64,000 nt of DNA from Chloroflexota bacterium (GTDB lineage: Bacteria; Chloroflexota; Anaerolineae; Aggregatilineales; Phototrophicaceae). This document shows, piece after piece, positions 3,874 to 56,562 of this stretch. The first letter of the stretch is position 1; the number at the start of each line of letters is the position of its first letter. The stretch covers positions 1 to 64,000 of the forward strand of contig WTGC01000140.1 of the NCBI GenBank assembly GCA_011523705.1. The letters are read 5' to 3'. A model generated the notes under the pieces. The model did no database searches and was not told where the DNA came from. It saw only the letters and a program-made list of their open reading frames with translations. The position numbers and the translations under genes are program-made.

Positions 3874-5192
3874 CGAATTCTCAGCTGACAAATGACATGG
3901 AATCGGAGCGCGGCTACCTGGTCGGGATTGCCTTGCAGTATGGGCGCGCCTTGCTTTCGATCCACGATTCGCTGGACGAGCTCGCCCTCTTGGCCGAGAC
4001 AGCCGGCATCAAAGTAGTCGGCAGAACCTGGCAGAAGCTGCGGCAGGTGAATTCCAAGTCGCTGATTGGCTCAGGCAAGTTGCAGGAGATCCTCGACGAT
4101 GTGGCATTGCTTGAGGCGACGGTCGTCATATTCGATGAGGAGCTCTCTCCTCGGCATCAGCGCGAATTGGAGAAGCATTTGGGCGAATCGGTGCGCCTCC
4201 TCGATCGCTCTGCGCTCATCCTTGATATTTTCGCCCAGCACGCCCGCACCAGCGAAGGCGCCTTGCAAGTCGAATTGGCGCAATACGAATATCGCTTGCC
4301 ACGCCTGACGCGGCAATGGACGCATTTGGCTCGCCAAGCCGGCGGTGGCGGCGCCCGCGGCGGATCCGGCGGCGTTGGGCTGCGCGGTCCGGGCGAAACC
4401 CAATTGGAAGCCGACCGGCGAGAGATCACGCGAAAAATCACAAAACTAAAGAAAGACTTGGAACATGTGCGCGCGCATCGCCGTCTTCATCGGCAGCGGC
4501 GGCGCAGCTCTGGTCTGCCGCTGGTGGCGCTGGTCGGTTATACCAACGCGGGCAAATCGACGCTGATTAACGCACTGACGGAGGCGCATGTGTACGCCGC
4601 TGACCAGCTTTTCGCCACGCTCGATCCGACGACGCGCCGCGTACAGCTGCCGGATCGTCAAGAGGCGCTGCTCACTGACACGGTCGGTTTCATCCAGAAA
4701 TTGCCGACAACGCTGATCGCGGCTTTTCGCGCCACGCTGGAAGAAGTCATAGAAGCGGACTTGCTGCTTCATGTGGTGGACGTCAGCCATGCCAATGCCG
4801 CGCAGCATATCGAGGCGGTGGAAGACACCTTGGCTGAAATCGACGCGGCCGGCGTGCCGCGCGTACTCGTCTTGAACAAGTCTGATCAGCTAGTTGGACC
4901 GCTCCCTTCCTTCGATCTCATCGACACCTACCAGGGCACAGTGGCGATATCGGCGAAGGATAAACAAGGCCTTGATGAGCTCTTGCAGGCGATGCGTGCG
5001 GCGCTAGCAACGCAGATGACGTCGCTGGAAGTCTTGATTCCCTATCAGACCGGTCGCGTGTATTCGGATCTGTATGACCGGGGCTATATCCAGTCCGAGA
5101 GAACCGGAAGCGATGGCTGGCGGCTGACGCTGCGCCTGCCCCTCGCCCACAGCGAAAGTTATCGCCGATACGCAGTCGCCGGCGGGAAATAG
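3870..5192 (+). CDS. hflX: Ribosome-associated GTPase HflX
   Basis: HflX binds the 50S subunit and rescues stalled or stressed ribosomes. The 440-aa product has the N-terminal HflX domain with the glycine-rich linker and the signature [14 protein letters not shown] near residues 168-186. The GTPase domain follows, with G1 [10 protein letters not shown]3 DTVGFI, G4 NKSD and a C-terminal extension. It is coupled to trmFO by a 4-base overlap and is probably the last gene of the plsX-fabF-trmFO-hflX run. The next gene converges on it. Confidence 0.95.
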
Positions 5193-5221
5193 CTGCGGTT
5201 CTATTCAAGATTCAGCGGTGA

Positions 5222-6193
5222 CTAGTGCGGGAGCTGCGCCCAGTATATCTCCGGACGGTAGCGGCTGTGCAGGAAAAGGCGCAAGTCGTCGGAGAGCGCG
5301 ATGGCGAGCGGCGCCGGCAGATCAGAGAAGACCACCATCTCCACATCTTGATTGCTGCAGCCGCTTGCAAGGCATTGTGATGGGTCAATGCGGCCGACGA
5401 CCCCGCGCGTGCCGAGCGCGTAGGAAAAATACAGATAACCATCGGCGCCCATGACGATATTTGTCGTGTTCTGAAGCCCGGAAACAAGCGGCATGATCTC
5501 TGTGTGGCTTCCATCGTCGGCAAGTTGGAAGAACTCAATGCCCCTTCTGGCGCTGCCGCCATTGGCGAAATAGACGATATCGGCGTCGCGGACGATGCCG
5601 GTCGGCGCGCGCAACTCGCCGTGCATCGTCTCTTGTTCGCCTTCAACTGAGACCGAAATGATGGCGTTCGCGCCCGTGTCTGTCACCAGGAAGGCGTCGT
5701 CATTCAGCCGCGTGATGCCCCAGGGCGCCGGCAACTCGGCGCTTACGCTAGTGGGCGCGGCGCGGCGCTGATCAACCTTCCACAGCGTACCGGTATCGGG
5801 GTCGGGCACGAAGAGATCAAAGCCGGCTTCAGTCGATTCGGCGATCAAGCTGTTGCCGTTGCGCACGCCGAAGACGAAGGTGACGGTATCTCCTGTGCGG
5901 TCGTCGATCTTGTAAATCGTCCAGTCGCCGTTGCAGACGGTGTAGAGCGTATCATCGAACCAGACGAGACCGTTCGGCCGCTGCACGTTGCCGATGATTA
6001 ATTCCAGATCGGATTGGAGGAAGGGGTTCTCCAGCGCGGCAGGCGGCGATTCAACCGCGGTTGTCGGGGAAGGCTCTGTGCTTTCTATTGCCGCCTGATT
6101 TCCAGCTTCGCTTTGCTGAGCGGCCGGCGTGGCATCTTGCGCGTGGCTCAGCGTCGCCAGGGCGAATATAATCATTGATGCGAGTAGTCTCAT
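5222..6193 (-). CDS. Exported beta-propeller protein (SMP-30/NHL-like)
   Basis: The 323-aa product begins with a clear signal peptide (MRLLASMIIFALATLSHA-Q). A 30-40-residue Ala/Glu/Pro-rich linker follows, then repeated blades with motifs such as RPNGLVWFDDTLY, APWGITRLNDDAFLVTDTG and APTGIVRDADIVYFA. These are characteristic of SMP-30, NHL and ScyD/ScyE-type propellers. I chose the start at 6193 because AGGGA lies 7 bases upstream and the signal peptide begins there; an upstream in-frame start at 6223 adds 10 residues. No catalytic residues can be assigned. It is a single gene converging on hflX. Confidence 0.75.
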   Translation of the reverse strand: MRLLASMIIFALATLSHAQDATPAAQQSEAGNQAAIESTEPSPTTAVESPPAALENPFLQSDLELIIGNVQRPNGLVWFDDTLYTVCNGDWTIYKIDDRTGDTVTFVFGVRNGNSLIAESTEAGFDLFVPDPDTGTLWKVDQRRAAPTSVSAELPAPWGITRLNDDAFLVTDTGANAIISVSVEGEQETMHGELRAPTGIVRDADIVYFANGGSARRGIEFFQLADDGSHTEIMPLVSGLQNTTNIVMGADGYLYFSYALGTRGVVGRIDPSQCLASGCSNQDVEMVVFSDLPAPLAIALSDDLRLFLHSRYRPEIYWAQLPH

Positions 6194-6493
6194 GGTGTGT
6201 CCCTGTGAGCGGAGCAAGGTCAAGGTAAAACTCGCCGGTGCAACGGAGGCATTCTACAACAATTGAGAGCATACCTCTAGCGGATTCGCTGCGGCGCAGA
6301 ATTGTGAGCTTGAATAGGATTGGGCGCCGGGGCAGTTCTATTAGAATCAGATTGAAAGCGATTCCAGGTCCGCTCGCAGCGTGATCGTAGGGCGCCTTAT
6401 GCCGCCGGGCAGCAGGGATAGGATGCTCAAATGGAGTTGAGCGCCAGCCATCGCCACGGCAAGCATGTGCATTCACCTGCTTGAGAGCAGCCT
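6194..6493. other. Divergent intergenic region, no feature recognised
   Basis: These 300 bases separate two divergent genes and must hold both promoters. I did not find a convincing -35/-10 pair, RNA gene or repeat. A minus-strand reading frame through part of it is out of keeping with neighbouring proteins and was rejected. Confidence 0.4.
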
Positions 6494-7558
6494 GTGAATA
6501 ATCCAAGGCGAAAAATCAAGTCGCGCGTTTTCGAGGCCGAAGTCATCCCGGGCCTCGAGTCATTTGCAATTGACGAGTTGCACGACAGATTCGGCGCCGA
6601 AGCGTCAAAGGTCAGGCGCGTGCGCGCGGGCTTCATTCGATTTCGATTCAGCGAGCCGGCGCAATTGCTTCTAGCCTTACGGTCGGTCATCGCTGTATAT
6701 CAGGTCCACCATTTCGTGATACCCCGGCCAAAAGCCCTGCTCGGTCATGAACATTTCGCCCGCTTGACGAAAATCTTGAACGAGACAGCGCAATCATTCG
6801 CTGAGCCTCCGCGGACATTTGGTATAGGCGCCGCCGGCGCGCGCACGTCGGTCATGCGCCGTCTGCATCAAGCGCTGTTGGACAAGCTGAATCTGGCGCC
6901 CGCTGAGGATGGCAAAGGGGAGCTCTTCGTCCGCCTGCAGCCCAAGCGGGAAGCCCAGGGCTGGGAATTGCTGATTCGTATATCGCAGCGACCGCTTTCC
7001 GCGCGCGCATACCGCGTCGTCAACATGCCCGGCTCGCTGAACGCGACAGCCGCTTATGCCATGACACAGCTCGAATCGCTGGACAATGGCGCAACCGTGG
7101 TCAATCTTTGCAGCGGCGCCTCCACGATCCTCATCGAACAAGCCTTGGTTCAGCCGCAGCATCAGCTGATCGCGATTGATTGCAGCGAAACCGCACTCAG
7201 TGCGGGCGCGCGAAACGCATCCGCCAGCGGCATTGGGCATCGCATTCTACACATACAGGCAGACGCAGGCCAATCGCCATTGCCCTCGCATTCCGCCGAT
7301 CGGCTGTACGCCGACTTGCCCTTCGGCCACCACGTTGGGTCGCATGAAACCAACAGACGGCTCTATCCGGCGATTCTGGAGGAAGCGGAGCGATTGGCTC
7401 GTTCCCGTGCCCCGTTTATCATTCTTACGCATGAGGTCAAGCTGCTGCGCCGCTGCCTCCAGCAGTCGTCCTGGGCAATATCGAGTGAAATTAGAATCAA
7501 CTTGCGCGGACTTCATCCACGCGTATTTGTGCTCAGGCGAAACTCGACTAGGATATAA
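6494..7558 (+). CDS. THUMP-domain class I methyltransferase (RNA guanine-N2-type)
   Basis: The 354-aa product looks like the Trm14/RlmL/THUMPD family. An N-terminal ferredoxin-like and THUMP region (about 1-165) begins with FEAEVIPGLESFAIDEL and precedes a Rossmann methyltransferase domain. That domain has SAM motif I VVNLCSGASTILIEQA, an acidic loop AIDCSETALSAG, and motif IV YADLPFGHHVGS. DLPFG replaces the common DPPYG and also occurs in eukaryotic and archaeal members. The likely product is m2G in tRNA or rRNA, but the target cannot be read from sequence. The start is GTG at 6494. It may be co-transcribed with the genes from 7593 on. Confidence 0.8.
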   Translation: MNNPRRKIKSRVFEAEVIPGLESFAIDELHDRFGAEASKVRRVRAGFIRFRFSEPAQLLLALRSVIAVYQVHHFVIPRPKALLGHEHFARLTKILNETAQSFAEPPRTFGIGAAGARTSVMRRLHQALLDKLNLAPAEDGKGELFVRLQPKREAQGWELLIRISQRPLSARAYRVVNMPGSLNATAAYAMTQLESLDNGATVVNLCSGASTILIEQALVQPQHQLIAIDCSETALSAGARNASASGIGHRILHIQADAGQSPLPSHSADRLYADLPFGHHVGSHETNRRLYPAILEEAERLARSRAPFIILTHEVKLLRRCLQQSSWAISSEIRINLRGLHPRVFVLRRNSTRI

Positions 7559-7592: not shown

Positions 7593-9188
7593 ATGCTTTC
7601 ACGGATTGTCGTCTACGCGCTCATCGCTTGCTCGGCGATTGCCTGCCGTTCAGCGCAAGAAGAGATTTCGCTTGAAGTCGCAGTCATTGCCGATGGGCGC
7701 GAAACGACCTTTAGCTTCACGCGCGATCTGACCGTTGACCAGGTGCTATCTGGCGCGCAAATCGAGTTGGGACCGCGCGACCGGATCAGCCACCCCCTGG
7801 TATCGCCCGTCGTCGACGGCATGCGCATAACGATTCGAAGGGTGTCCGAGCGGGATATCTGCGAGCAGGAAGAGATCGCTCATAAGCGGCTCTTGTTGCC
7901 CAAGGAAGGCCTGCAGGCTGGCCAGCGTGAAAAGGGCCAGGCGGGCGTCAATGGCCGGCGCGAGATTTGCTATCGCGTCTTGCTGGAAGATGAGACGGAA
8001 GTGGACCGCGTTCGGCTGGGCAATCCCACAGTGGTGCGAGAACCGATCGATGAGGTCATTTATGTTGGGACGAGCAATACCGTTCAGCCCTTGGATATCC
8101 CCGGCCGTCTCAGCTATATCAATCACGAAAACGCCTGGACAATCGCCAGTAACGCAGCCAACAAAGTCCGCCTGACTCGTGATCACAAGCTGGACGGTTT
8201 TGTATTCCACCAGAATCAAGACGGCTCGCGCTTGATATTCACCAGCGAGACCGATGAGACAGATGACTTCTTCAACGAGCTCTGGATGATCAATCTGGAG
8301 CGCGAATCCGAACCTGTGCGCATGACGCCCACCGATGTGCTCTTCGCCCAGTGGCGCCCGCGCGCGCCAAATGAAATCGCCTATTCGACGGGCGTGCGCA
8401 GCCCAGGCGCAACTGACAAGAAGTCCTTGAACAATCTGTGGCTGATGAGCATCGATTTGGAGAGCGGGCGAACGCTCGACATAGAAGAGGTGTTGCCCGA
8501 ATCGGGCGGCGGTCTTTACGGCTGGTGGGGCAAGAATTTCAGCTGGTCGCCATTTGGAGACAAGCTGGCTTGGGCGCGGGCGGATGGCTTTGGGCTGGTG
8601 GACTTTGAAAGCAAGCGACTGACGCCCCTGACGCAATACGCCGTATTTCACAGCGCGGCGACTTGGGTCTGGCTGTCGCCGCTGTCCTGGTCCTTTGACG
8701 GCCAGTTGCTTGCGGGCATCGCGCATGGCGCGCCGCTCGCGGATGAACCGGCGGAGGCCAGCCCCATCTTCGATATGGTTGTCGCCAGCGCAGACGGGCG
8801 CTTTGTCGCGCCGATCCGTCTGTCCTCCGGCATGTGGTCGTCGCCCTCGTTCTCGCCCGATTTAGCGCGGCCAGGCGCGGAAACCAGAAGCGGATACCTG
8901 GCCTGGCTTCAAGCGCGCGAGCCGCAAAACAGTATGAGCAGCGAATACGATCTGATGCTGGCCGACCGTGACGGCAGCAATCAGCGGCGGCTCTTTCCAG
9001 CAGCCGGCGACCAGGGGATTCGCAAACATGACTTTGGCTCGCGAGCCGGCGACTACGTCTGGAGCCCCGATGGGCGTTTTATCGCCCTGATCTACGCGGG
9101 CAACCTGTGGCTCATTGAAGTTGAGACCTCAGCCGCGCTAGAGCTGACATTTGACGGGCAGTCCTCGAACCCCGTCTGGACAAGATAA
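7593..9188 (+). CDS. Lipoprotein with DUF348, G5 domain and TolB-like propeller
   Basis: The 531-aa product starts with a short signal containing possible lipobox cysteines at residues 13 (LIAC) and 18 (AIAC). Residues about 25-85 resemble the ubiquitin-like DUF348 domain ending in VVDGMRITIRR. Residues about 85-155 resemble a G5 domain ending in PIDEVIYVGT. The rest is a WD40-like/PD40 propeller with blades such as DGSRLIFTSE, LSWSFDGQLLAGIA and YVWSPDGRFIALIY. G5 domains often bind cell-wall or surface glycans, and TolB-like propellers bind proteins. The start has AAGGA upstream. It overlaps the next gene by one base (TAATG), so the two products are probably made together. Confidence 0.7.
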   Translation: MLSRIVVYALIACSAIACRSAQEEISLEVAVIADGRETTFSFTRDLTVDQVLSGAQIELGPRDRISHPLVSPVVDGMRITIRRVSERDICEQEEIAHKRLLLPKEGLQAGQREKGQAGVNGRREICYRVLLEDETEVDRVRLGNPTVVREPIDEVIYVGTSNTVQPLDIPGRLSYINHENAWTIASNAANKVRLTRDHKLDGFVFHQNQDGSRLIFTSETDETDDFFNELWMINLERESEPVRMTPTDVLFAQWRPRAPNEIAYSTGVRSPGATDKKSLNNLWLMSIDLESGRTLDIEEVLPESGGGLYGWWGKNFSWSPFGDKLAWARADGFGLVDFESKRLTPLTQYAVFHSAATWVWLSPLSWSFDGQLLAGIAHGAPLADEPAEASPIFDMVVASADGRFVAPIRLSSGMWSSPSFSPDLARPGAETRSGYLAWLQAREPQNSMSSEYDLMLADRDGSNQRRLFPAAGDQGIRKHDFGSRAGDYVWSPDGRFIALIYAGNLWLIEVETSAALELTFDGQSSNPVWTR

Positions 9189-12100
9189 TGCGCAAACTCA
9201 TTCAACTGATCGTTGCTCTGATGCTGATGACCGGGAGCCTGGTGGCCACCCTTGCCACCATCGATTTGCGCGACTTTGAGCTGCGTGGTTACGTCGACCC
9301 GACCAAAGACAAGAATCTCCCTTTCATGGTTGAGCGGCCCGGCGTCAACGTCGAATTGCTTCTGTACAACGCAACCGACCTGGAAAGCGCGCTGGAGCAG
9401 ATTCGCGGCGCGAGCTTTCGCTGGGTCCGGCAGTTTGCCTATTGGGATGAAATCGAGAGGGAACGGGGCGAGTATGACTGGGACGCTTGGGATCGCGTGG
9501 CGGAGGCTCTGCGCCAGCACCGGGAGCTTGAGCCGGTCGTAGTCTTGATGAATTCGCCGTCCTGGGCGCGGGAAAACCGCGGCGATAATAAATCAACGCG
9601 AACCGCCCCACCCTATTCCCTGGCCGAATTCGCCGCCTTCAGCCGGGAATTCGCCGCGCGCTACGGCGATGTCATCGACTACTATCAAATATGGGACGAA
9701 CCCAACCTCGGCGATGCCTGGGGCGGGGCTGATCCGCGGCCGGCGTCTTATGTCGCTTTGCTCGCTGCTGCGAGAGAAGCGATTTTGCATGCGGATCCCT
9801 CCGCGAGAATCGTCGCCGCTGGCCTCGCGCCTACGGTTGAGACAGCCGGGCGCAACATCAGTGATATCCGCTACCTAGAGGCGATGTATGCGCTTGGCGC
9901 GCGCGAACTGATGGATGTGGTCGCGGGGAAACCTTATGGACAGTTTTCTCCGCCATCCGATAGACGAGTCGACGAAAGCCTGCTGAACTTCTCGCGCATC
10001 ATCGCGCTGCGCGAGGTCATGCTGGCCCATGGCGACGGCAAGAAACCACTATGGGCGAGCAACTACGGTTGGAATGCGCTGCCCGGGGATTGGGATGGCG
10101 ACCCGTCAATCTGGGGCGAAGCTACTGAAGACGAACAAGTGCAATATACGCTGGAGGCGCTGGATCGCGTTCATCGCGAGATGCCCTGGCTTGGTCCGCT
10201 CTTCCTGCAGCATTGGCAGCCGGCGGCAGAGCCGACCAGCGCGCAATGGGGATTTGCGCTTGTCAAGCATGACGACTCGGCTTCCGCGCTCCTCCATGCC
10301 TTGCAGGCGTACCCCTACCCGAACCTGGCCGAGGATGGCTTGTACCATGCGCGCAACCGACACGCCAGCTACAGCGGCGTCTGGGAATTCGGCGAGCTGG
10401 GCGCAGATATCGGTTGGTTGCCGGCTAGCGACAGCCAGTTGTCCTTCGATTTTTTTGGCGCAGACGTCGCCATGCTGCTTAGAGAAGACGAGTACTTCGC
10501 CTTCATTTATCCAACCGTGGACGGAGGGGCGCCCAATGCCGTGCAGCATGACGCCAGCGGCAACGCCTACATATTCCTGCGCAGCAATTCGCGCGCGCCG
10601 GAAGTGAATCTCGTCCCGATCGCGTCCAATCTGCCGCTGGGCGGCCACACGCTTCGCGCCAGCACGCATCAAGGCTGGGACCGCTGGGCGATCGCCGGTT
10701 ACGCCGTCAGCTCGGGCGATCTATTCGCGCCCTACAATCGGCAGATTGCGTTGGGCGCCCTCGCCACCCTGTTGTCATTGATCGTCTTCGCGGTTTCGGT
10801 CGCGAGTGCGCTTTGGAAAGATTGGCTGCCCGGGCTGAGCAATCTGTTCGCTGGGCTCAATGCCACGATCCATTTGTTGATGACCGGCCTTACATCCATC
10901 TTCATGATGCTGGCAATGCTGTGGACCTGGGAAACGCCGAAAGCCTCCATCTTTGTGCGCGACGAGGTGAATATCGCGCTCGCGCTCCTGACTGGCGGTG
11001 CGCTCTATGTTTCCGAGAGCGTACTCATCACGCTAATTCTGGCTGTCCTGCTCTTCATACAGATTTACCACCGGATTTCCAACGGACTCATTCTCACCAT
11101 ATTTTGGGCGCCATTCTTCTTGTCGCCGGTAGAGCTGTACAGCTATGCCTTTCCCCTGGTCGAAGTGATCCTGCTCATATCGGCCGCGGCTGGTTTGGTC
11201 AGAGTAGTGGTCGGCATCGGCCGGAAGCTGCAGATGGACAACGCTGCCTTCCCCGCGCTCTCCCGCCGATCGCTGCGGAGCGTCACAGCGATAGACATTG
11301 CCGTCGGCGGCATGGTGCTTCTCGCGGTAGTTTCGCTCTATTGGACGCGACACTTGGACACGGCGATGACGGAGTTGCGAACGCTGATAATCGAGCCGGC
11401 ACTCTTCTACCTGCTGCTGCGAATGGCGCGCTTGGACCGAAAAACGCTGGTCCATTGCTTCCTGGCAGTCTTATTTGCCGGCGCTGTTGTCTGTTTGGTC
11501 GGTCTTTACGATGTCATTTTGGGTCAAGGGCATCTGCCGTTGAAGAGCGTGTATGGCTCGCCAAACAATGTCGGCTTGCTATTGGGTCGCGCGATTCCGC
11601 TGGCGCTGGCTTTGGCTCTGGTAAGGTTCGATTCGCGCTTGCGCTGGTTTGCCGCGGGCAGCCTCGCGATCATGCTGCCCGCATTAGTGCTGACACAGAG
11701 CATCGGCGCGATACTTCTGGGCGTGCCGGCCGGTATCGCCGCGGTTTTCATTGGGCGATACGGTCGCAAGGCAATCGCGCCTTTGGTAGCGCTCGCCGCG
11801 CTCGGCCTTGCCGCTGTAATGTTGCTGGCGCAGTTTTCAGCCACAATTGCAAACGCCCTCGACTTCACGAGCGGCACGAGTTTCGTGCGGCTTCGCTTGT
11901 GGGAGAGCACGATATCCATGCTTCAAGACCGGCCCGTAACCGGATTCGGGCTTGATCAGTTTCTCTATTATTTCGGCGGCCAGTATATAAGGCCTGACGT
12001 GATATGGGACGCGGATCTCTCTCACCCTCACAACTTTGTCCTGGACTTTTGGACGCGGCTGAGCCTGTTTGGAGTATTCCTATTTGGGCTGATTCAGTTC

Positions 12101-12319
12101 CTGTTTTGGCGCAAGGCGATGGCAGTTTCACGAGCGTTTCGTCAAGGCGACAGCTTGCTCTATGCGCTGGCGCTGGGCTTGAGCGGGAGTATGGCGGCGC
12201 TGCTGGCGCACGGACTGGTCGACAACAGTGTCTTCGTCATTGATTTGGCTTTCCTGTTCATGTTTCAACTCGCGGCCATGATCAGGCTCGGGCAACTCGC
12301 CTCACCGTCAGAAACGTGA
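9188..12319 (+). CDS. Fusion: glycoside-hydrolase-like domain plus O-antigen ligase/Wzy-like membrane domain
   Basis: The 1043-aa product has an N-terminal hydrophobic signal/anchor. A TIM-barrel glycoside-hydrolase-like domain (about 50-400, clan A, GH39/cellulase-like) follows, with the acid/base motif IWDEPNLGD (Glu171). A beta-sandwich-like region spans about 400-510. From about 517 there are many membrane helices, including an O-antigen ligase/polymerase segment with [21 protein letters not shown] and [10 protein letters not shown]. The nucleophile position of the barrel reads [10 protein letters not shown], with Asn292 where related enzymes have Glu, so hydrolysis is doubtful. By topology the barrel should lie on the outer face with the ligase active loops. 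Inference: recognition or processing of an envelope glycan coupled to its ligation. Family call secure for both halves; substrate unknown. Confidence 0.8.
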
Positions 12320-12408
12320 CGCCTGGACAGCAGCCCAGCCTACGCATACACGGTGAAGGCGAACTGTGGTAATATTCCGTCAATTCGACGATGGGAAGGC
12401 GGTTGAAA

Positions 12409-13356
12409 TTGCGCGTCTTGATCACTGGCGGCGCCGGCTTTATTGGCTCACATCTGTGTGACCGATTCTTGCGCGACGGACATCGTGTGGTGGCGATGGA
12501 CAATCTCATCACCGGTTCGCAAGAGAATATCGCGCATCTCGCTGGCAATCGCGATTTCGAGTTTATCTATCACGATGTCAGCAATTTCATTCATGTGCCG
12601 GGACCAGTCAATGCGGTGCTGCATTTTGCCTCGCCGGCCAGCCCAATCGACTACCTCAAATACCCGATACAGACGCTGAAAGTCGGCGCGCTGGGCACCC
12701 ACAACGCTCTCGGTCATGCATTGGCGAAAGGGGCTAAGTTCTTACTCGCTTCGACATCGGAGGTTTACGGCGACCCACTGAAGCATCCGCAGAAAGAGTC
12801 TTATGCGGGCAATGTCGACCCGGTGGGGCCGCGTGGCGTCTATGACGAAGCCAAGCGCTATGCCGAAGCCCTCGTGATGGCTTATCACCGCCAACATCAG
12901 ATGGATACCAGGATCGTGCGCATTTTCAACACGTACGGACCGCGAATGCGTTTGGATGATGGGCGGGTGGTGCCGAACTTTATCGGACAGGCGCTCCGCG
13001 GCGAGGCGCTAAGCGTTTACGGCGATGGCTCGCAGACGCGCAGCTTCCAATATATTGACGATTTGATCGAGGGCGTCGTCCGTCTGTTGCGCAGTGATTT
13101 CGTGGAGCCGGTGAACATTGGCACCTCACGGGAAATCAGCATCCTCGACTTCGCCAAGATCGTGAATCGCGTGGCGAACAACCGCGCCGGCATCGTATTC
13201 GCTGACGGTTCCCGCATTGATGGCGATCCGCAGACGCGCCGACCCGATACCGCACGCGCGCGCGAGGTTTTGAATTGGCGGCCAAGAGTCGAGCTGGAAC
13301 ATGGCCTCGAATGGACGCTAGAGTATTTTCGATCTGTCCTATCCCTGGCCAGCTAA
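12409..13356 (+). CDS. uxs: UDP-glucuronate decarboxylase (UDP-xylose synthase) of the SDR family
   Basis: The enzyme converts UDP-glucuronate to UDP-xylose with bound NAD. The sequence has the Rossmann motif [34 protein letters not shown] and STSEVYGDP. The catalytic YDEAK follows GPRGV, then [12 protein letters not shown]; together these are diagnostic of UXS. I chose TTG at 12409, which gives [10 protein letters not shown] with GGGAAGG 9 bases upstream; an ATG at 12391 would add six residues. The product is 315 aa. It supplies a sugar donor for the surrounding envelope-glycan genes and ends 1 base before the next ORF. Confidence 0.88.
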
Positions 13357-13357
13357 G

Positions 13358-14818
13358 ATGGTCTTGGCGCAATCCAAGAGCCACATTCATTGGTCCTGTG
13401 TAGTTGCCGCAGTCATCGCCGCCGTCGCCACTTCGCTATTGCCCCTGCCCAGTCTGTTGCTCATAGTCGCCTTGAGCCTTTGCCTGCTGCTGATTCCTCT
13501 TACGCCCCTCGCCATGTTGGTCGTGCTATTGTCGCTCGCCCCACTGCGCGCGCTCATCGCGACCGAGTCCGGCATTCATCTGCCGCTCGACATTGGACAG
13601 ATTTTGCTCGCGCTATACCTTGGAATCTGGTTCGCCTACGCCGTAATGAAACGCCGGCCGCTGCCAGGTGTCAGCCGCGAGCCGGTTTTGCTATCGGCCG
13701 CCGCGCTCTGCCTCGTTTTCGCCATTGGCCTTTGGACCAGCGATGGCATCGGCAACTGGCTTACTGAATGGCTGAAGTGGGTTGTGATCGCCATCATGAT
13801 TTGGCATCTGTCGCAGAGCGCCCGCTTCAACTGGCTCTGGCTTGCCTTTGCCGTCCTCGTGAGCGCCGCGGCCAATGCGGTCATAGGCTTGTACATCTTT
13901 TTGGGCGGAAGCGGCGCCGATCACCTGCTCATCCTGGGACGGTTTTTCCGTGCCTTTGGCACCTTCGGCCAGCCGAATCCTTTCGGAGGGTTCATGGGGA
14001 TCGCCCTGCCGCTCGCTCTAATGTGCGCCGCCGTCCAGTCTTATCAGATCGCGCTTGACCTGTGCGCCGGGCGCCGCGTAGTGCCTTCGCGAATTCTTCT
14101 GCTGGCGGCGACCGCGTCGGCTGTGGGCATCATCGCGGCCGCGCTCTTCGCATCCTGGAGCCGGGGCGCGTGGCTGGGCTTCGCCGTATCGCTTGTCGTC
14201 ATGCTGGTCGCCCTGCCCAGACGCCTGCTGAAGGGCATATCCCTCGCTTTCGCTTTGGCGGCGCTCTTCTTTGCCCTGTGGTCGGCGGGACTGCTGCCCA
14301 GCTCGGTCGTCTCTCGCATCACGACCGCGGCGACCGATCTGTTTTCATTCAGCGATGTGCGCGGCGCCAACTTCACGCCGGCGAATTTTGCCGTCATTGA
14401 GCGGCTGGCGCATTGGCAGGCAGCCATCGGCATGGCGCAAGATCACCCGCTCTTCGGCGTCGGATTGGGCAACTATGCCCTTCGCTATGATGATTACCGC
14501 TTGATCAACTGGGAGGCGCCCCTGGGCCACGCGCATAACCTGTATCTGAACTTCCTTGCCGAAACCGGCGTCGTGGGGCTGGCCGCCTATCTCGTCTTTT
14601 GGATTGCCATCTTCCGCGTGACCTGGAGGACGCTCAAGCATCCGGACCGGACTGCGCGCGCCGTCGCCGTCGGCTTGCTCGGCTGCTGGACCTATATCGC
14701 CGTTCACAGCGTCTTTGACAATCTGTATGTGAACAACCTGTTTTTGCATATCGGTGTATTATTGGCTGTGTTGGCGATTCTTCATCGCCAGGTTGCCGCA
14801 TCGCTTGAATTGGATTAG
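13358..14818 (+). CDS. O-antigen ligase family membrane protein
   Basis: The 486-aa polytopic protein has about 11-12 membrane segments and the Wzy_C/WaaL-type region. SWSRGAWLGF is followed by a large loop with WQAAIGMAQDHPLFGVGLGN and LGHAHNLYLNFLAETG. The His-containing periplasmic loop is typical of ligases and polymerases that transfer glycans from undecaprenyl-diphosphate. It lies 1 base after the decarboxylase gene and 2 bases before gtrA. It is the second ligase-like gene in the locus; the membrane half of the gene at 9188 is the first. Ligase versus polymerase cannot be decided from sequence. Confidence 0.85.
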   Translation: MVLAQSKSHIHWSCVVAAVIAAVATSLLPLPSLLLIVALSLCLLLIPLTPLAMLVVLLSLAPLRALIATESGIHLPLDIGQILLALYLGIWFAYAVMKRRPLPGVSREPVLLSAAALCLVFAIGLWTSDGIGNWLTEWLKWVVIAIMIWHLSQSARFNWLWLAFAVLVSAAANAVIGLYIFLGGSGADHLLILGRFFRAFGTFGQPNPFGGFMGIALPLALMCAAVQSYQIALDLCAGRRVVPSRILLLAATASAVGIIAAALFASWSRGAWLGFAVSLVVMLVALPRRLLKGISLAFALAALFFALWSAGLLPSSVVSRITTAATDLFSFSDVRGANFTPANFAVIERLAHWQAAIGMAQDHPLFGVGLGNYALRYDDYRLINWEAPLGHAHNLYLNFLAETGVVGLAAYLVFWIAIFRVTWRTLKHPDRTARAVAVGLLGCWTYIAVHSVFDNLYVNNLFLHIGVLLAVLAILHRQVAASLELD

Positions 14819-14820
14819 CA

Positions 14821-15408
14821 ATGTCCCACGCTGTGACGCCGGACGCGCCCGACCCAACCAGATCGCATCGTCAGTTGAAGACGCCAGTTGATGGTCTCAT
14901 TGCCGCCCTTTCGCTAAAAGTCGGACGGGGCAAGGCGAAGGAAGTTGAGCGATTCATCAAGTTCGCCTTTGTCGGTACATTGGGCTTCGTCATTGATATT
15001 GGCGCCGTGATCATCCTGCAGAATACCGTGCTGCCGCCGGAAAACGATCAGAACGTGCTCATCGCCAACAGCGTCGGCTTTGTTTTGGCCGTCTGCAGCA
15101 ATTTCATCTGGAACCGCGTCTGGACTTATCCGGATTCTCGCAGTTATTCGGTGCGCCGCCAATTGACGCAATTCGCGATTGTCAGCGTCATTGGGCTGAT
15201 TATCCGCAATGTCTGGATCAGCGGCACATACGAGCAATTCGGAGAGCTGTCGACGACTATTCTGAAGGGCGCTAATGCCGGCTATGCGCCGCAATTGGTC
15301 GACCAGAACAAGTTGGGAACAACGATTGCCTTGGTTTTTGGCGTGCTGATTGTGCTGATTTGGAATTTCGTGGCGAATCGATTCTGGACCTATAACGACG
15401 TCGAATAA
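14821..15408 (+). CDS. GtrA family membrane protein
   Basis: The 195-aa protein has four membrane segments of the GtrA type: FIKFAFVGTLGFVIDIG, ANSVGFVLAVCSNFIWNRVW, a third near ITVSVIGL-like residues 115-125, and a last ending in WNFVANRFWTY. GtrA proteins are thought to help flip or deliver undecaprenyl-phosphate-linked sugars for surface glycans. A hydrophilic 45-residue N-terminus precedes the domain. There is an insertion of about 45 residues between helices 3 and 4, longer than in many family members. It sits between the ligase and the glycosyltransferase with 1-2-base gaps, so it belongs to the same operon. Confidence 0.85.
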   Translation: MSHAVTPDAPDPTRSHRQLKTPVDGLIAALSLKVGRGKAKEVERFIKFAFVGTLGFVIDIGAVIILQNTVLPPENDQNVLIANSVGFVLAVCSNFIWNRVWTYPDSRSYSVRRQLTQFAIVSVIGLIIRNVWISGTYEQFGELSTTILKGANAGYAPQLVDQNKLGTTIALVFGVLIVLIWNFVANRFWTYNDVE

Positions 15409-15409
15409 C

Positions 15410-16549
15410 GTGCACCGGATCGCACTGGATTATACCCCCGCGCTCAAACAGACTGGCGGCATCGGGCGTTACGTTCGCGAGCTCACCGACGCTTTGGCGA
15501 CGGTCGATCGGTCCAACGCGTATCGCTTATTCGCTGCGGGCTCGAAAATTGCTGAGCTGCCAGTACTCCCCGGCAAGAATTTCAGTTGGAGATCGACGCG
15601 CGTCAGCAGCAAGTGGCTCGCGCGGCTCTGGCATCGAGCCGGCATTCCGCTTCCGATCGAGACGTTTACCGGTTCCGTCGATTTGTACCACGCGACCGAT
15701 TTTGTATTGCCGCCTGCCCGCAGCGGCACTCGTACCTTGCTAACCGTGCATGACTTGTCTTTCGTGCGCGTTCCGAGCGCGGCCAGCCCGCCACTCAAAG
15801 CTTATTTGGATGCGGTCGTCCCACCGTCGGTCGCGGCGGCGGATCGTATCCTGGCCGATTCTGCAGCGACCAAGGCGGACTTGATTGAGCTTTATCAAAC
15901 GCCCGCAAACAAGATCACGGTTCTTTACAGCGGCGTCAATCCGCGATTCCGCCGCGTCGATGACGCCGACGCGCTTTTGAGCATGCGGCGCAAGTATGGC
16001 TTGTCGAATACGCGCTATTTGCTTTCTGTCGGCACCGTGCAGCCGCGCAAAAACTACAGCCGGGTGGTGGAAGCGCTGTCGGCGCTCCGCCATGCGGGGC
16101 ATGATCTCCATTATGTCATCGCCGGAGGAAGCGGCTGGCTCGAAGATGAACTGGGAGCGACAATTGAGCGCACCGGAACGGGACAATATGTTCACATGCT
16201 TGGATTGGTTGACGATGTCGATTTGCCTGCGCTATACAGCGGCGCGCGCATGCTGGCGATGGTTTCGCTCTACGAGGGCTTTGGGCTGCCGGTGCTGGAA
16301 GCGATGGCTTGCGGCACGCCGGTGATCACCAGCAATTTGTCGTCGCTGCCCGAAGTGGGCGGCAGCGCTGCCCTGCTGGTCGATCCGCACGATAGCGAGG
16401 CCATCCGAGACGCAATCCTCCGGCTTGAGATGGACGGGGCAACCCGTATGCAGTTGATCGAGGCCGGTTATCAGCAAGCGGAAGAATTCTCCTGGGTGCG
16501 CGCGGCCAGGCAACTCAAATCGATATATGATGAAATCCTGGAGGTTTGA
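15410..16549 (+). CDS. Glycosyltransferase family 4 (GT-B fold)
   Basis: The 379-aa product begins MHRIALDYTPALKQTGGIGRY, with the glycine-rich acceptor loop of GT4 enzymes. It carries the donor-site motifs FLLSVGTVQPRKN-like at about 200 and EGFGLPVLEAMACGTPVI with the EX7E pair near 285-293. It probably transfers a hexose or mannose to a lipid-linked glycan at the cytoplasmic face. The start codon is GTG at 15410, one base after the GtrA stop. It closes the tightly packed run that starts at 7593. Confidence 0.9.
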   Translation: MHRIALDYTPALKQTGGIGRYVRELTDALATVDRSNAYRLFAAGSKIAELPVLPGKNFSWRSTRVSSKWLARLWHRAGIPLPIETFTGSVDLYHATDFVLPPARSGTRTLLTVHDLSFVRVPSAASPPLKAYLDAVVPPSVAAADRILADSAATKADLIELYQTPANKITVLYSGVNPRFRRVDDADALLSMRRKYGLSNTRYLLSVGTVQPRKNYSRVVEALSALRHAGHDLHYVIAGGSGWLEDELGATIERTGTGQYVHMLGLVDDVDLPALYSGARMLAMVSLYEGFGLPVLEAMACGTPVITSNLSSLPEVGGSAALLVDPHDSEAIRDAILRLEMDGATRMQLIEAGYQQAEEFSWVRAARQLKSIYDEILEV

Positions 16550-18250: not shown

Positions 18251-19294
18251 GTGTCAAAAGTGACGGAACAGACAGCCACCGAAAGCCGCAAGGCGGACCA
18301 CATTCGCATCAATCTGGATAGCGATGTGCAGTTTCCTCGGCTGACGACCGGGCTGGAACGATATCGCTTTATGCACCAGGCGTTGCCCGAGCTAAGCCTG
18401 AATGATATCGACACAAGGGCGAGTCTCTTTGGCAAGACACTGGGCGCCCCGATCTTGATCTCGTCCATGACCGGCGGGACCGAGATCGCCCAATCCATTA
18501 ATCGCAACCTCGCCCGCGGCGCGCAAAAGCATCGGATCGCCATGGGTTTGGGATCACAGCGAGCCGCACTTGAAGACCGCGCGCTTGCGAGCAGCTACTG
18601 CATCCGCGATATCGCACCGGATATTCTGCTATTCGCCAATGTAGGCGCGGTGCAGTTGAACTACGGCTACGGACTGCAACAGTGTCAAGAGGCGGTGGAC
18701 ATGGTCGGCGCCGATGCCTTGATCCTCCACTTCAATGTCTTGCAGGAAGCGGTGCAGCCGGAAGGTGATATTGATTTCTCGGGCTTGCTGCGCAAAGTGG
18801 AATCCATTTGCGCCAAAGTTAGCGTACCGGTTGTTGCGAAGGAAGTTGGCTGGGGCTTTTCCGATTCGGCTGTGCGCGACCTTGACAACGCCGGCGTCTC
18901 CGCCATTGATGTCGCTGGCGCCGGCGGCACCTCCTGGAGCGAAGTGGAATATCACCGGGCGCCAAACGCCTTTCACGCCAGGGTGGCGCGCAGCTTCGCC
19001 GATTGGGGCATACCGACTGTTGACGCCATCCAGTATGCCCGTCGCGCCGCGCCCAACTTGCCGGTCATCGCAAGTGGCGGCTTGCGCGATGGCATTGACA
19101 TCGCCAAGAGCATCGCTCTCGGCGCGGATATCGCCGGCTTGGCCAGCCCATTCTTGCGCGCGGCCAGCGAATCGTTTTCAGCGGTCGATGAGTTGATTCA
19201 GGAGCTTGCCGCGCAACTGCGAATCGCGATGCTCTGCACCGCCTCAGGCGATATCGCCGCGCTGAAGCAAGCCGAGCTTCATGTCATAACTTGA
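18251..19294 (+). CDS. fni: Type 2 isopentenyl-diphosphate delta-isomerase
   Basis: This FMN- and NAD(P)H-dependent enzyme interconverts IPP and DMAPP for isoprenoid synthesis. The 347-aa product shows the N-terminal RKADHIRI, the [12 protein letters not shown] loop, [12 protein letters not shown] and the FMN-phosphate site AGAGGTSW. The glycine-rich [22 protein letters not shown] near the C-terminus is also present. The start is GTG at 18251 with AAGGA 10 bases upstream. Its 3' end overlaps hemW by 11 bases in convergent orientation. Confidence 0.95.
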
Positions 19295-52874: not shown

Positions 52875-54692
52875 ATGAAAAAACGACTGTCGATTATTTT
52901 CATCACGTCGTTGTTGCTAATCATCAGCATATCATTCAGCCAAGAAAACTCCGTCACCAACCTTCTGGATAACGGCGACTTTGAAGGAAACTTTGTTGAA
53001 TTGACTGGCGCGGACCCGCGGAACGTGGCCGAATCCTGGACGCCTTGGCATATCGCCGCATCAGACACAAGCCCGTCCTTTGCCAATCACAATCCGAATT
53101 ACGATGAAGAGACGGACCGCGTTCGGTTGGACGAAGCTGGCAAGGCGCAGAAGTATTTCACACTGTTCGCCACGCATCAAGGCGGCATCTATCAAGAAGT
53201 GGATTCGCTGACGAACGGCACGACCTATCGCTTCAGTGTCTATGCCTACGTCTGGTCGTCCAGCTTTGAGGACGTCGATGTCAGCGAAGATCCCGGCGAT
53301 GTCGTGATTCGCGTCGGCATTGATCCGAATGGCGGCACGGATGGCGCCAGCGAGGACATTATCTGGTCGACTGCGGCAACTTTCTTCTATGACGCCTATC
53401 GCCAATACGCGGTGATTGCCACGGCTGAAAGCACGACCGTCACCGTTTTTGTCGAATCGACCGTTGGCGAGCCGCGCGCCAATAACTACATCTATTTGGA
53501 TGATGCCGTGCTTGAGGTGGCCAGCGAAACGGTGGTGGTGGTCGAACATACGCCGACCTCGGAAACCAACACCGGGCTTGTTGATGACACAGCGACGCCG
53601 ACTCCTTCGCCAACCGAAGACGATCAGCAGAATGGCGCCACCGGACAAGAAGGGCGCAGCGAACAGCAGCAAGCGACTGCAACGCCAACGCCGACTGCAA
53701 CGGCAACCCCAACGGCAACTGCGACGGCAACGCCCTCGCCCGTTCCAGCCACGGAGGAAGACAATTCGACCCCAGCCGCCACCGAATCTGGCGAGTTCCC
53801 GGATACGGTTGTGCATATCGTGGTGGCCGAAGACACGGTCAGCGGGCTGGCGGTTCAGTACGGCAGCACCGTGGATGCGATACGGCGGGCGAACGATCTG
53901 GATGCGAACAGTCTAATCGTAGTCGGGCAACGGCTCATTATTCCGGTGAACTTGCCGCCCGCCTCAGCCGTGGTTGGCGCGGGCGACACTGCCCCCACCT
54001 TCACTCCAACGCCGTCGCTAACCCCAACGCCGACGCATACGCCTACGTCGACCCCAACAACAACGCCATCGCCGACAGCGACGCCGATAACCTACCAAAT
54101 CCAGCCGGGCGATACATTGGTGAATATCGCGCAGCAGTATGGCACCACCGTAGACTTGTTGGTCGCAGCCAATAACATTCCAAATCCTGATCAAATTTCA
54201 GTAGGTCAAATTCTGTTGATTCCTACGGCGATCCCGCCGACGCCTGACGAAAATCTGCGCCCGACAGTGACCTTGTTTCCGACCGACGGACCGACGCCGG
54301 ATCCGGCGGCCACCGAAGCGCCTCCTTGGTACACGATTTATGTCGTGCAGGTTGGCGACACGCTGGATGAGATCGCGCGGGAACATGGCACGACCGTCCA
54401 GGCCTTGGTGGACCTAAATGATATTTCCGATCCTGGCAGAATTGATCCGGGTCAGGAAATCAAGATCCCGTCACCCTACCCGACGCCGACGCTCACGCCT
54501 ACGATTACGCCGCAGCCGACTTTCACGCCGCTGCCTACGTATTTTCCGGTCACGTATACCGTGCAGGCGGGCGACACGCTCTTCAGTATCGCCGCGCTTT
54601 ACGGCCTCAGCGTCGTTGAATTGGCGCAGGTAAACGGGATCGTCGATTACGAAGACCTGACCGTTGGCCAGGTATTAACCATCCCCGGCTGA
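52875..54692 (+). CDS. Exported protein with N-terminal carbohydrate-binding-like domain and four LysM repeats
   Basis: The 605-aa product starts with a signal peptide. Residues about 30-215 form a beta-sandwich-like region (NLLDNGDFEGNF, GIYQEVDSLTNGTTYRFSVYAYVW) of the carbohydrate-binding type. Four LysM modules follow (starts near 310, 405, 490, 560), each with (V/Q)xxGDTLxxIAxxxG and xVGQxLxIP cores. Modules are joined by Thr/Pro/Ala-rich linkers. LysM modules bind peptidoglycan or chitin-like glycans. No enzyme domain is visible, so it is probably a wall-bound scaffold. The second half is close in type to the next gene. Confidence 0.85.
   Translation: MKKRLSIIFITSLLLIISISFSQENSVTNLLDNGDFEGNFVELTGADPRNVAESWTPWHIAASDTSPSFANHNPNYDEETDRVRLDEAGKAQKYFTLFATHQGGIYQEVDSLTNGTTYRFSVYAYVWSSSFEDVDVSEDPGDVVIRVGIDPNGGTDGASEDIIWSTAATFFYDAYRQYAVIATAESTTVTVFVESTVGEPRANNYIYLDDAVLEVASETVVVVEHTPTSETNTGLVDDTATPTPSPTEDDQQNGATGQEGRSEQQQATATPTPTATATPTATATATPSPVPATEEDNSTPAATESGEFPDTVVHIVVAEDTVSGLAVQYGSTVDAIRRANDLDANSLIVVGQRLIIPVNLPPASAVVGAGDTAPTFTPTPSLTPTPTHTPTSTPTTTPSPTATPITYQIQPGDTLVNIAQQYGTTVDLLVAANNIPNPDQISVGQILLIPTAIPPTPDENLRPTVTLFPTDGPTPDPAATEAPPWYTIYVVQVGDTLDEIAREHGTTVQALVDLNDISDPGRIDPGQEIKIPSPYPTPTLTPTITPQPTFTPLPTYFPVTYTVQAGDTLFSIAALYGLSVVELAQVNGIVDYEDLTVGQVLTIPG
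53675..53735 (+). repeat. Low-complexity Thr/Pro/Ala coding repeat
   Basis: A run of ACNGCNACNCC-like triplet repeats encodes a Thr-Pro-Thr-Ala linker in the LysM protein. Such tracts can vary in length between strains by slippage or recombination. A second shorter T-P tract lies at about 53998-54090. Confidence 0.6.
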
Positions 54693-55017: not shown

Positions 55018-55044
55018 ATGAGCGAAGGCGCAAAAGGATGTCTC

Positions 55045-56562
55045 TTGAATGAGTCATTAAGAAATTGTCTGATAATTCTGTTGGCATTGCTCCTATTCTT
55101 GCCTGCCCCACATGCCGCGCAAGAGTCCAGCGATGAGGCATTTGCCGTGCACGTCGTTCAGCGTGGCGAAAACCTTTTTCGGATCGCGCTGAAATACAAC
55201 CGATTCGCCGAGGAAATCGCCGAAGCCAATGGCATTGCCGATAGCGATACGATATCCGTTGGTCAACGCCTGATCATACCGCTGGCGGCGGGGGTTCCGC
55301 AGCAGCGCATCACGCATATCGTTGCCGCTGGCGATACGCTCGCCAGTATCGCCTCGGTTTATGGCAAGAACTTGGCGGAACTCAGTTCGCTAAACCGATT
55401 GACCTCAGCCGACCTCATTTATGTCGGACAGGAACTGACAATCGTCGCCGGGGATGATGAAGCTGAAAACGAGCGTTTGGACGACACGCAAAAGAGCGCG
55501 CCGACGGAAAGCCAAGTTTCGCTTGTGCCCACAGTCGCTCCCAGTTTGGGCATCCGCCATATATTTTCTCGTTCTGGAGATCCGGCCCAAGTCTTTATTC
55601 ATGCGGTGAAATCTGGCGAGACGCTGTCGGAGATTGGGCTGCGCTACCACCAGACGATCGACGCCCTGGCGCGCGCCAACAATATGGCGGACCCGAGTTT
55701 CCTCAGCGTGGGCCAGCGCCTGACAATACCGGGAATCCTATTGCCGCAACTGACCCTGGAACTGCCGGAATCGGTCATGGCATTCACCATCGATCCGCTG
55801 GTCTTTGAGGCGGGGCGAAGCGGGCGAGTCGAATTGCTCACCAGCGAACCGGCGACGATCACCGGTCAATTTCTTGGGCGAGAGCTGCGTGTCATAGAGA
55901 GCGAGGGCGGTCTGCGTCACAATATGCTGATCGGCATCCCCATGTTCACGAAGATGAGCGTCTACCCCTTGACGCTCGAGCTCACCGATGAACAGGGACA
56001 AGTCAGACCGGTTGCCGCCAACGTGCAAGTGATCAGCGGCGGCTACGGTCGCCAAACGATTAAAATCGCTGACAGCGAGTTGTTGGCGCCAGCGGTGGAA
56101 GAAGAGGAGTTTTCTCGGCTGGCGGGCGCAACAGGCGGCTTCAACCCGGAGCGTTCCTGGAGCGATGGGCTCAGTTTACCAGCTACCGCGCCGATCAACG
56201 CCGTTTTTGGCACGCTGCGCTCCTATAACGGCAGCCCCTTCAATCGCTATCACGGTGGCGTGGACTTCGCTGGCGCGCCCGGCACGTCAATTTTGGCGGC
56301 GGCCGACGGCACGGTGATCATGGTGGATCGCCTGCAGATCCGCGGCAACACGACCCTAATTGACCACGGTTGGGGACTGTACACGCTATACGCACATCAA
56401 GACGAAACGCTGGTCGCGGCAGGGGCGGATGTCACAACTGGCCAAGTGATCGGCACTGTTGGCTCAACCGGACGGAGCACGGGACCGCATTTGCATTGGG
56501 AAGCTTGGCTGAATGGTGTCAACGTCGACCCGATGCAATGGGTGGAGGAAGCCTTTCCCTAG
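55045..56562 (+). CDS. Exported LysM-M23 peptidase (murein hydrolase)
   Basis: The 505-aa product has a signal peptide (LIILLALLLFLPAPHA). Three LysM modules (starts near 35, 90, 195 with GENLFRIAL, GDTLASIAS and GETLSEIGL) are followed by a beta-rich linker. A C-terminal M23 domain carries HGGVDFAGAPGT, LYAHQDETLV and HLHWEAW, the His and Asp zinc ligands. It should cut peptidoglycan peptide crosslinks outside the membrane. I chose TTG at 55045 because AAAAGGA lies 6 bases upstream and a promoter fits; an ATG at 55018 is the alternative and adds nine residues. Confidence 0.88.
   Translation: MNESLRNCLIILLALLLFLPAPHAAQESSDEAFAVHVVQRGENLFRIALKYNRFAEEIAEANGIADSDTISVGQRLIIPLAAGVPQQRITHIVAAGDTLASIASVYGKNLAELSSLNRLTSADLIYVGQELTIVAGDDEAENERLDDTQKSAPTESQVSLVPTVAPSLGIRHIFSRSGDPAQVFIHAVKSGETLSEIGLRYHQTIDALARANNMADPSFLSVGQRLTIPGILLPQLTLELPESVMAFTIDPLVFEAGRSGRVELLTSEPATITGQFLGRELRVIESEGGLRHNMLIGIPMFTKMSVYPLTLELTDEQGQVRPVAANVQVISGGYGRQTIKIADSELLAPAVEEEEFSRLAGATGGFNPERSWSDGLSLPATAPINAVFGTLRSYNGSPFNRYHGGVDFAGAPGTSILAAADGTVIMVDRLQIRGNTTLIDHGWGLYTLYAHQDETLVAAGADVTTGQVIGTVGSTGRSTGPHLHWEAWLNGVNVDPMQWVEEAFP

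Follow-up and report, generated by a model that had tools for sequence, protein, structure and literature searches.

In a 64,000-nucleotide stretch of a Chloroflexota genome (GenBank assembly GCA_011523705.1, contig WTGC01000140.1, positions 1 to 64,000; termed here the window), a single gene encodes a glycosidase-like barrel joined to a membrane ligase domain of the WaaL type. The barrel keeps the acid/base glutamate of PslG and lacks its catalytic nucleophile, and it is under purifying selection similar to that acting on the ligase half. With moderate confidence, we read the protein as a WaaL-type ligase with a built-in, catalytically silenced barrel that holds the glycan.

Polysaccharide operons often include periplasmic glycosidases (PslG, BcsZ, AlgL, PgaB), and what these contribute to synthesis is a matter of debate. 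In the present protein, such a barrel is fused to a ligase, its standard catalytic machinery has been removed in one large lineage and its pocket is still selected, such that binding is separated from cutting and the question becomes testable in one protein. The fusion is a new arrangement of known parts, the nearest known cases being PslG, WaaL and the bimodular ligase WadA, and text searches of the open-access literature found no report of a glycoside hydrolase-ligase fusion. It also suggests that the Chloroflexota, a phylum whose surface polymers are poorly known, have a widely conserved system for envelope glycans that has yet to be characterised.

Architecture of the fused protein

The gene is a single intact open reading frame (ORF) with an ATG start and, as a preliminary description of this DNA had proposed, encodes one uninterrupted protein of 1043 amino acids. 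Its features are:

9188-12319 (+): fused gene; N-terminal membrane anchor, PslG/GH39-like barrel, jelly-roll-like middle and WaaL-type GT-C domain
9191-9286 (+): hydrophobic N-terminal anchor helix, residues 2-33 (hydropathy, predicted helix)
9329-10312 (+): PslG-like clan-A (beta/alpha)8 barrel, residues 48-375 (phmmer, fold comparison, purifying selection)
9695-9700 (+): Asp170-Glu171; Glu171 corresponds to the acid/base Glu165 of PslG, Asp170 to PslG Asn164, a residue in contact with the -1 sugar
9929-9931 (+): Lys248, aligned with PslG His237 and co-occurring with Asp170
10061-10063 (+): Asn292, at the position of the catalytic nucleophile, PslG Glu276
10433-10717 (+): beta-sandwich or jelly-roll-like domain, residues 416-510 (predicted strands, sub-threshold CE2_N matches in relatives, purifying selection)
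10865-12307 (+): polytopic WaaL/Wzy_C GT-C domain, residues 560-1040 (Pfam Wzy_C, profile against 7TPG, fold comparison)
11888-11890 (+): Arg901, equivalent by alignment to WaaL (7TPG) Arg265, which contacts undecaprenyl diphosphate; kept in 91 of 91 fused proteins
12029-12031 (+): His948, equivalent by the same alignment to WaaL His313, which activates the acceptor; kept in 91 of 91

The clan-A barrel that had been proposed for the N-terminal half is supported by sequence matches to PslG (phmmer E 3.4e-13, residues 51-308) and to GH39 xylosidases (E 2e-5), and by a predicted fold that superimposes on PslG (4zn2) with Z 31.6 over 323 residues at 2.9 Å, GH39 xylosidases being among the nearest folds (Z ~26). 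Pfam gave no match in this half of the window protein, where the GH39 profile stays below its curated cut-off, as it does among 21 relatives (best E 0.017); a search of the fused protein against NCBIfam returned nothing useful. PslG, an endoglycosidase of Pseudomonas aeruginosa (PDB 4zn2, 5bx9, 9g17), is thus the nearest solved barrel in both sequence and fold, and the acid/base Glu is common to both proteins. It is membrane-associated, on the outer side of the inner membrane, and works in exopolysaccharide synthesis, features that the window barrel would share; as an inner-membrane-associated hydrolase it is a reported contributor to Psl synthesis (PMC6813494). PslG differs in being a separate protein with Glu276 and Asn164, whereas the window protein has Asn292 and Asp170 and is fused to a ligase. 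The GH39 beta-xylosidases (e.g., 2bs9, 1px8) share the clan-A barrel but are active, retaining, soluble enzymes with both catalytic Glu residues.

The middle domain, described beforehand as beta-sandwich-like, is modelled with strands in both of our AlphaFold predictions and shows sub-threshold matches to the CE2_N jelly-roll in 11 of 21 relatives, although sequence searches of the PDB with this domain gave no significant match. The two predictions cover the full-length protein (mean predicted local distance difference test score 66.6, predicted template modelling score 0.51) and the barrel plus middle (75.9 and 0.69), the former supporting the individual domains but not the placement of the barrel relative to the ligase.

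The membrane-spanning part begins at about residue 513 in the full-length model, close to the residue 517 from which a polytopic Wzy/WaaL domain had been predicted, and that assignment is upheld by the Pfam Wzy_C profile (PF04932, residues 825-966; score 55.2 bits, cut-off 31.7, E 9e-15), by comparison of a C-terminal-half profile with WaaL 7TPG (E 6e-10) and by the predicted fold of residues 624-1040, which matches 7TPG with Z 21.7 over 370 residues at 4.6 Å. The window protein shares with this O-antigen ligase (GT121) the GT-C fold, the Wzy_C profile, the equivalents of Arg265 and His313, and a large outer loop; relative to WaaL, it adds the N-terminal anchor, the barrel and the jelly-roll-like domain, and has Ile839 in place of Arg191 (roles of Arg191, Arg265 and His313 from PMC10920833). 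A precedent for a ligase carrying a second carbohydrate-active module is the bimodular O-ligase WadA (GT121 plus GT25; PMC10920833), whose partner module is a glycosyltransferase rather than a clan-A glycosidase-like barrel.

A single N-terminal hydrophobic helix precedes the barrel and middle, which are followed by the polytopic domain. Since it follows a lone anchor, the barrel would lie on the outer face of the membrane, and homology to WaaL would place the loop carrying Arg901 and His948 (residues 884-958) outside as well, so that barrel and catalytic loop plausibly share the same side.

Active-site residues, spread and selection

Residues were mapped onto PslG by an alignment with one common numbering offset for Asn164, Glu165 and Glu276, whose roles are taken from PMC11912335. 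Glu171, noted beforehand as part of an IWDEPN motif, indeed occupies the acid/base position, but the Asn that precedes it in the clan-A motif WNEP, on strand 4, is replaced by Asp170. The strand-7 nucleophile is absent, with Asn292 at the aligned position, and misalignment is unlikely because this position sits between the invariant residues W289, G294 and W295, a frame that is as constant in our alignment (A1) as D170, E171 and K248. Trimming by the standard mechanism is therefore unlikely in the window protein, and an active retaining hydrolase was rejected.

Among 91 fused proteins, the acid/base position is Glu in 90, while position 292 is Asn in 45, His in 23 and Glu in 17, with other residues in the rest; most fused barrels carry Asn, His, Gln, Ser, Ala or Asp there. 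After redundancy reduction (56 fused and 20 stand-alone proteins, excluding the frameshifted L076), at least one catalytic Glu is missing from 44 of the 56 fused proteins and both are present in 12, whereas all 20 distinct stand-alone barrels have the Asn-Glu pair plus the nucleophile Glu. In one related group of fused proteins, it is the acid/base Glu that has been lost (DQ or DA; L121, L124, L125), so that loss of hydrolysis by either route appears to be tolerated. Some distant fused proteins from other classes (e.g., L128-L133) have both catalytic Glu residues. Some fused proteins in which the nucleophile is retained (L055, L056, L057, L103) also carry Asp170 and Lys248, which suggests that these two residues arose before it was lost. 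The fused barrel of one further locus (L075, 6140-9328) combines Asp170 and Lys248 with a Glu at the nucleophile position and is nested among Asn and His forms, the Glu being either retained or regained. Elsewhere in the genome that contains the window (L002-L006) lie several stand-alone paralogues of the barrel, their catalytic Glu residues intact, two of them near each other on C214, and two ORFs contain a barrel without a Wzy match (L134, 2613-6008, 1132 amino acids; L131, 3215-6256, 1014 amino acids).

Of 33 genomes of the same genus, 32 encode the fusion at full or nearly full length (the remaining one, G003, shows the first 233 residues only), and most of the families sampled within the order have it. 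Both halves lie within one ORF in at least 38 of 400 sampled Chloroflexota genomes, spanning 15 family codes, a count that is a lower bound given the cut-off of E 1e-60. Public relatives are labelled as Anaerolineae or as Chloroflexi metagenome-assembled genomes. Plasmid records, the only ones examined beyond Chloroflexota, gave barrel-only matches and no fusion.

Between close relatives, the barrel gave ratios of nonsynonymous to synonymous substitution (dN/dS; Nei-Gojobori method) of 0.14-0.24, against 0.08-0.17 in the middle and 0.14-0.18 in the ligase half; in most pairs of genomes, purifying selection was strongest on the middle domain. The barrel is thus not decaying, and its interpretation as a degenerating relic was rejected.

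Proposed function and its alternatives

The preliminary description had left the barrel to choose, hold or trim the glycan being ligated; trimming is disfavoured by Asn292, and the combination of nucleophile loss with purifying selection favours holding or choosing. The core of the proposed machine would be a membrane glycan ligase or oligosaccharyltransferase of the WaaL type (Wzy_C, GT-C), to which an outward-facing domain would have been added whose ancestor was an endoglycosidase resembling PslG, bound to the membrane and acting in the same pathway. Deprived of the retaining nucleophile, and with a pocket that appears re-modelled yet constrained (Asp170, Glu171, Lys248, Tyr250), the barrel would bind a segment of a lipid-linked, probably xylose-containing glycan and select or present it to the catalytic loop, where Arg901 and His948 would transfer it to an acceptor. 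Xylose is suggested by a neighbouring gene for UDP-xylose synthase (UXS) and by kinship with GH39.

Several points weigh against this proposal. The equivalent of WaaL Arg191 is Arg in only 22 of 91 fused relatives and, in the clade of the window protein, is usually Val, Ile or Ala, so that the transferase half may also be atypical. On the tree, the nucleophile was lost in only a few independent events, so that its association with fusion does not count as independent in the statistical sense; when fusion and catalytic loss were compared in independent pairs, the test had no power at this number of events and permits no strong statistical claim. Glycan binding by the barrel is a prediction, xylose in the glycan is one from gene neighbourhood, and the conservation of E171 may indicate residual chemistry.

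This last point leads to the possibility, unlikely in our estimation, that the barrel is still an enzyme, in which Glu171 acts as acid and Asp170, Lys248 and Asn or His292 aid inverting hydrolysis, substrate-assisted cleavage or glycan transfer. The near-invariance of Glu171 agrees with this, as does the joint conservation of D170 and K248 after nucleophile loss, which exceeds what a dead site would need, and Asn and His swap repeatedly at position 292 (16 letter changes) rather than drifting. However, one related group has lost E171, Ala, Ser, Gln and Asp also occur at 292, and GH39 is known as a retaining family (PMC11912335). A specific form, in which Asp170, Glu171 and Lys248 together with Asn or His292 make up a new centre for non-retaining processing of the lipid-linked glycan, coupled to its transfer, we consider rather improbable.

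It is also fairly improbable that the whole fused protein serves as a non-catalytic scaffold or chain-length regulator for the second Wzy_C protein, the product of the gene two places downstream. Both of its sites are altered (the barrel nucleophile, and Ile839 for Arg191), whereas the 13 fused proteins whose barrel has an intact Asn-Glu/Glu set all retain Arg191; the second Wzy_C protein shows all three motifs by inspection, and the two genes stay together. Yet R901 and H948 are invariant, and one conserved Arg suffices in related families (PMC10920833).

The earlier suggestion of a trimming barrel, read here as a PslG-like editor that cuts or frees the glycan ahead of ligation or in its course, may fit those distant fused proteins with both Glu residues (e.g., L128-L133), but for the window protein, with Asn292 for PslG E276 between unambiguous flanks, we find it highly unlikely. 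Finally, an artefact of assembly, or a chance read-through that merged two genes, as the broken L076 and the separate genes of L127 might be taken to indicate, can be dismissed: relatives in independent assemblies are fused at 86% down to ~30% identity, which speaks equally against the strain-specific join of which the preliminary description had warned, and L076 is split by a frameshift in a G-rich run, its reading as two separate genes having been rejected.

Gene neighbourhood and unfused forms

The fused gene sits in an operon whose other members are:

7593-9188 (+): DUF348-G5 protein; putative lipobox, propeller-like C-terminal part (Pfam, sequence)
12391-13356 (+): UDP-glucuronate decarboxylase (UXS) homologue (human UXS1, E 2e-102)
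13358-14818 (+): second Wzy_C protein, unfused; all three WaaL-type motifs present (Pfam, inspection)
14821-15408 (+): GtrA-like membrane protein (Pfam)
15410-16549 (+): GT4 glycosyltransferase (Pfam)

These assignments bear out the glycan locus with a separate ligase, UXS, GtrA and GT4 that had been recognised beforehand. The stop of the G5 gene overlaps the start of the fused gene by one base, and the two are conserved together. Across the order, the arrangement G5 lipoprotein-like gene, fusion, UXS, Wzy_C, GtrA, GT4 recurs with few exceptions, UXS lying immediately downstream of the fusion in most loci.

In other classes, a stand-alone barrel gene of the active type precedes the fusion (L126, L128-L133, L143), and UXS and a second Wzy_C gene again follow it in L126, L132 and L143. 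In genome G079 (L127), the barrel (593 amino acids, with a C-terminal anchor), Wzy (477 amino acids), UXS and a further Wzy are four separate genes, the barrel and the first Wzy lying at 4039-7251, and this barrel clusters with the stand-alone ones. Because unfused and two-barrel layouts both exist, and the L127 barrel groups with stand-alone barrels, it is plausible that the fusion originated by duplication of a neighbouring barrel gene, with one copy then joined to the ligase gene.

Downstream of GT4 in most same-genus loci lies a gene for an FMN-dependent dehydrogenase-family protein (18251-19294 in the window), which we take to resemble type 2 isopentenyl-diphosphate isomerase and which could feed the supply of lipid carrier. 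A secreted-looking protein of 333 amino acids without a Pfam match is encoded at 5222-6223 (-) and is 60-84% identical in same-genus loci. Farther along the window, a LysM-repeat protein (52875-54692) is encoded beside one that combines LysM with an M23 peptidase (55018-56562).

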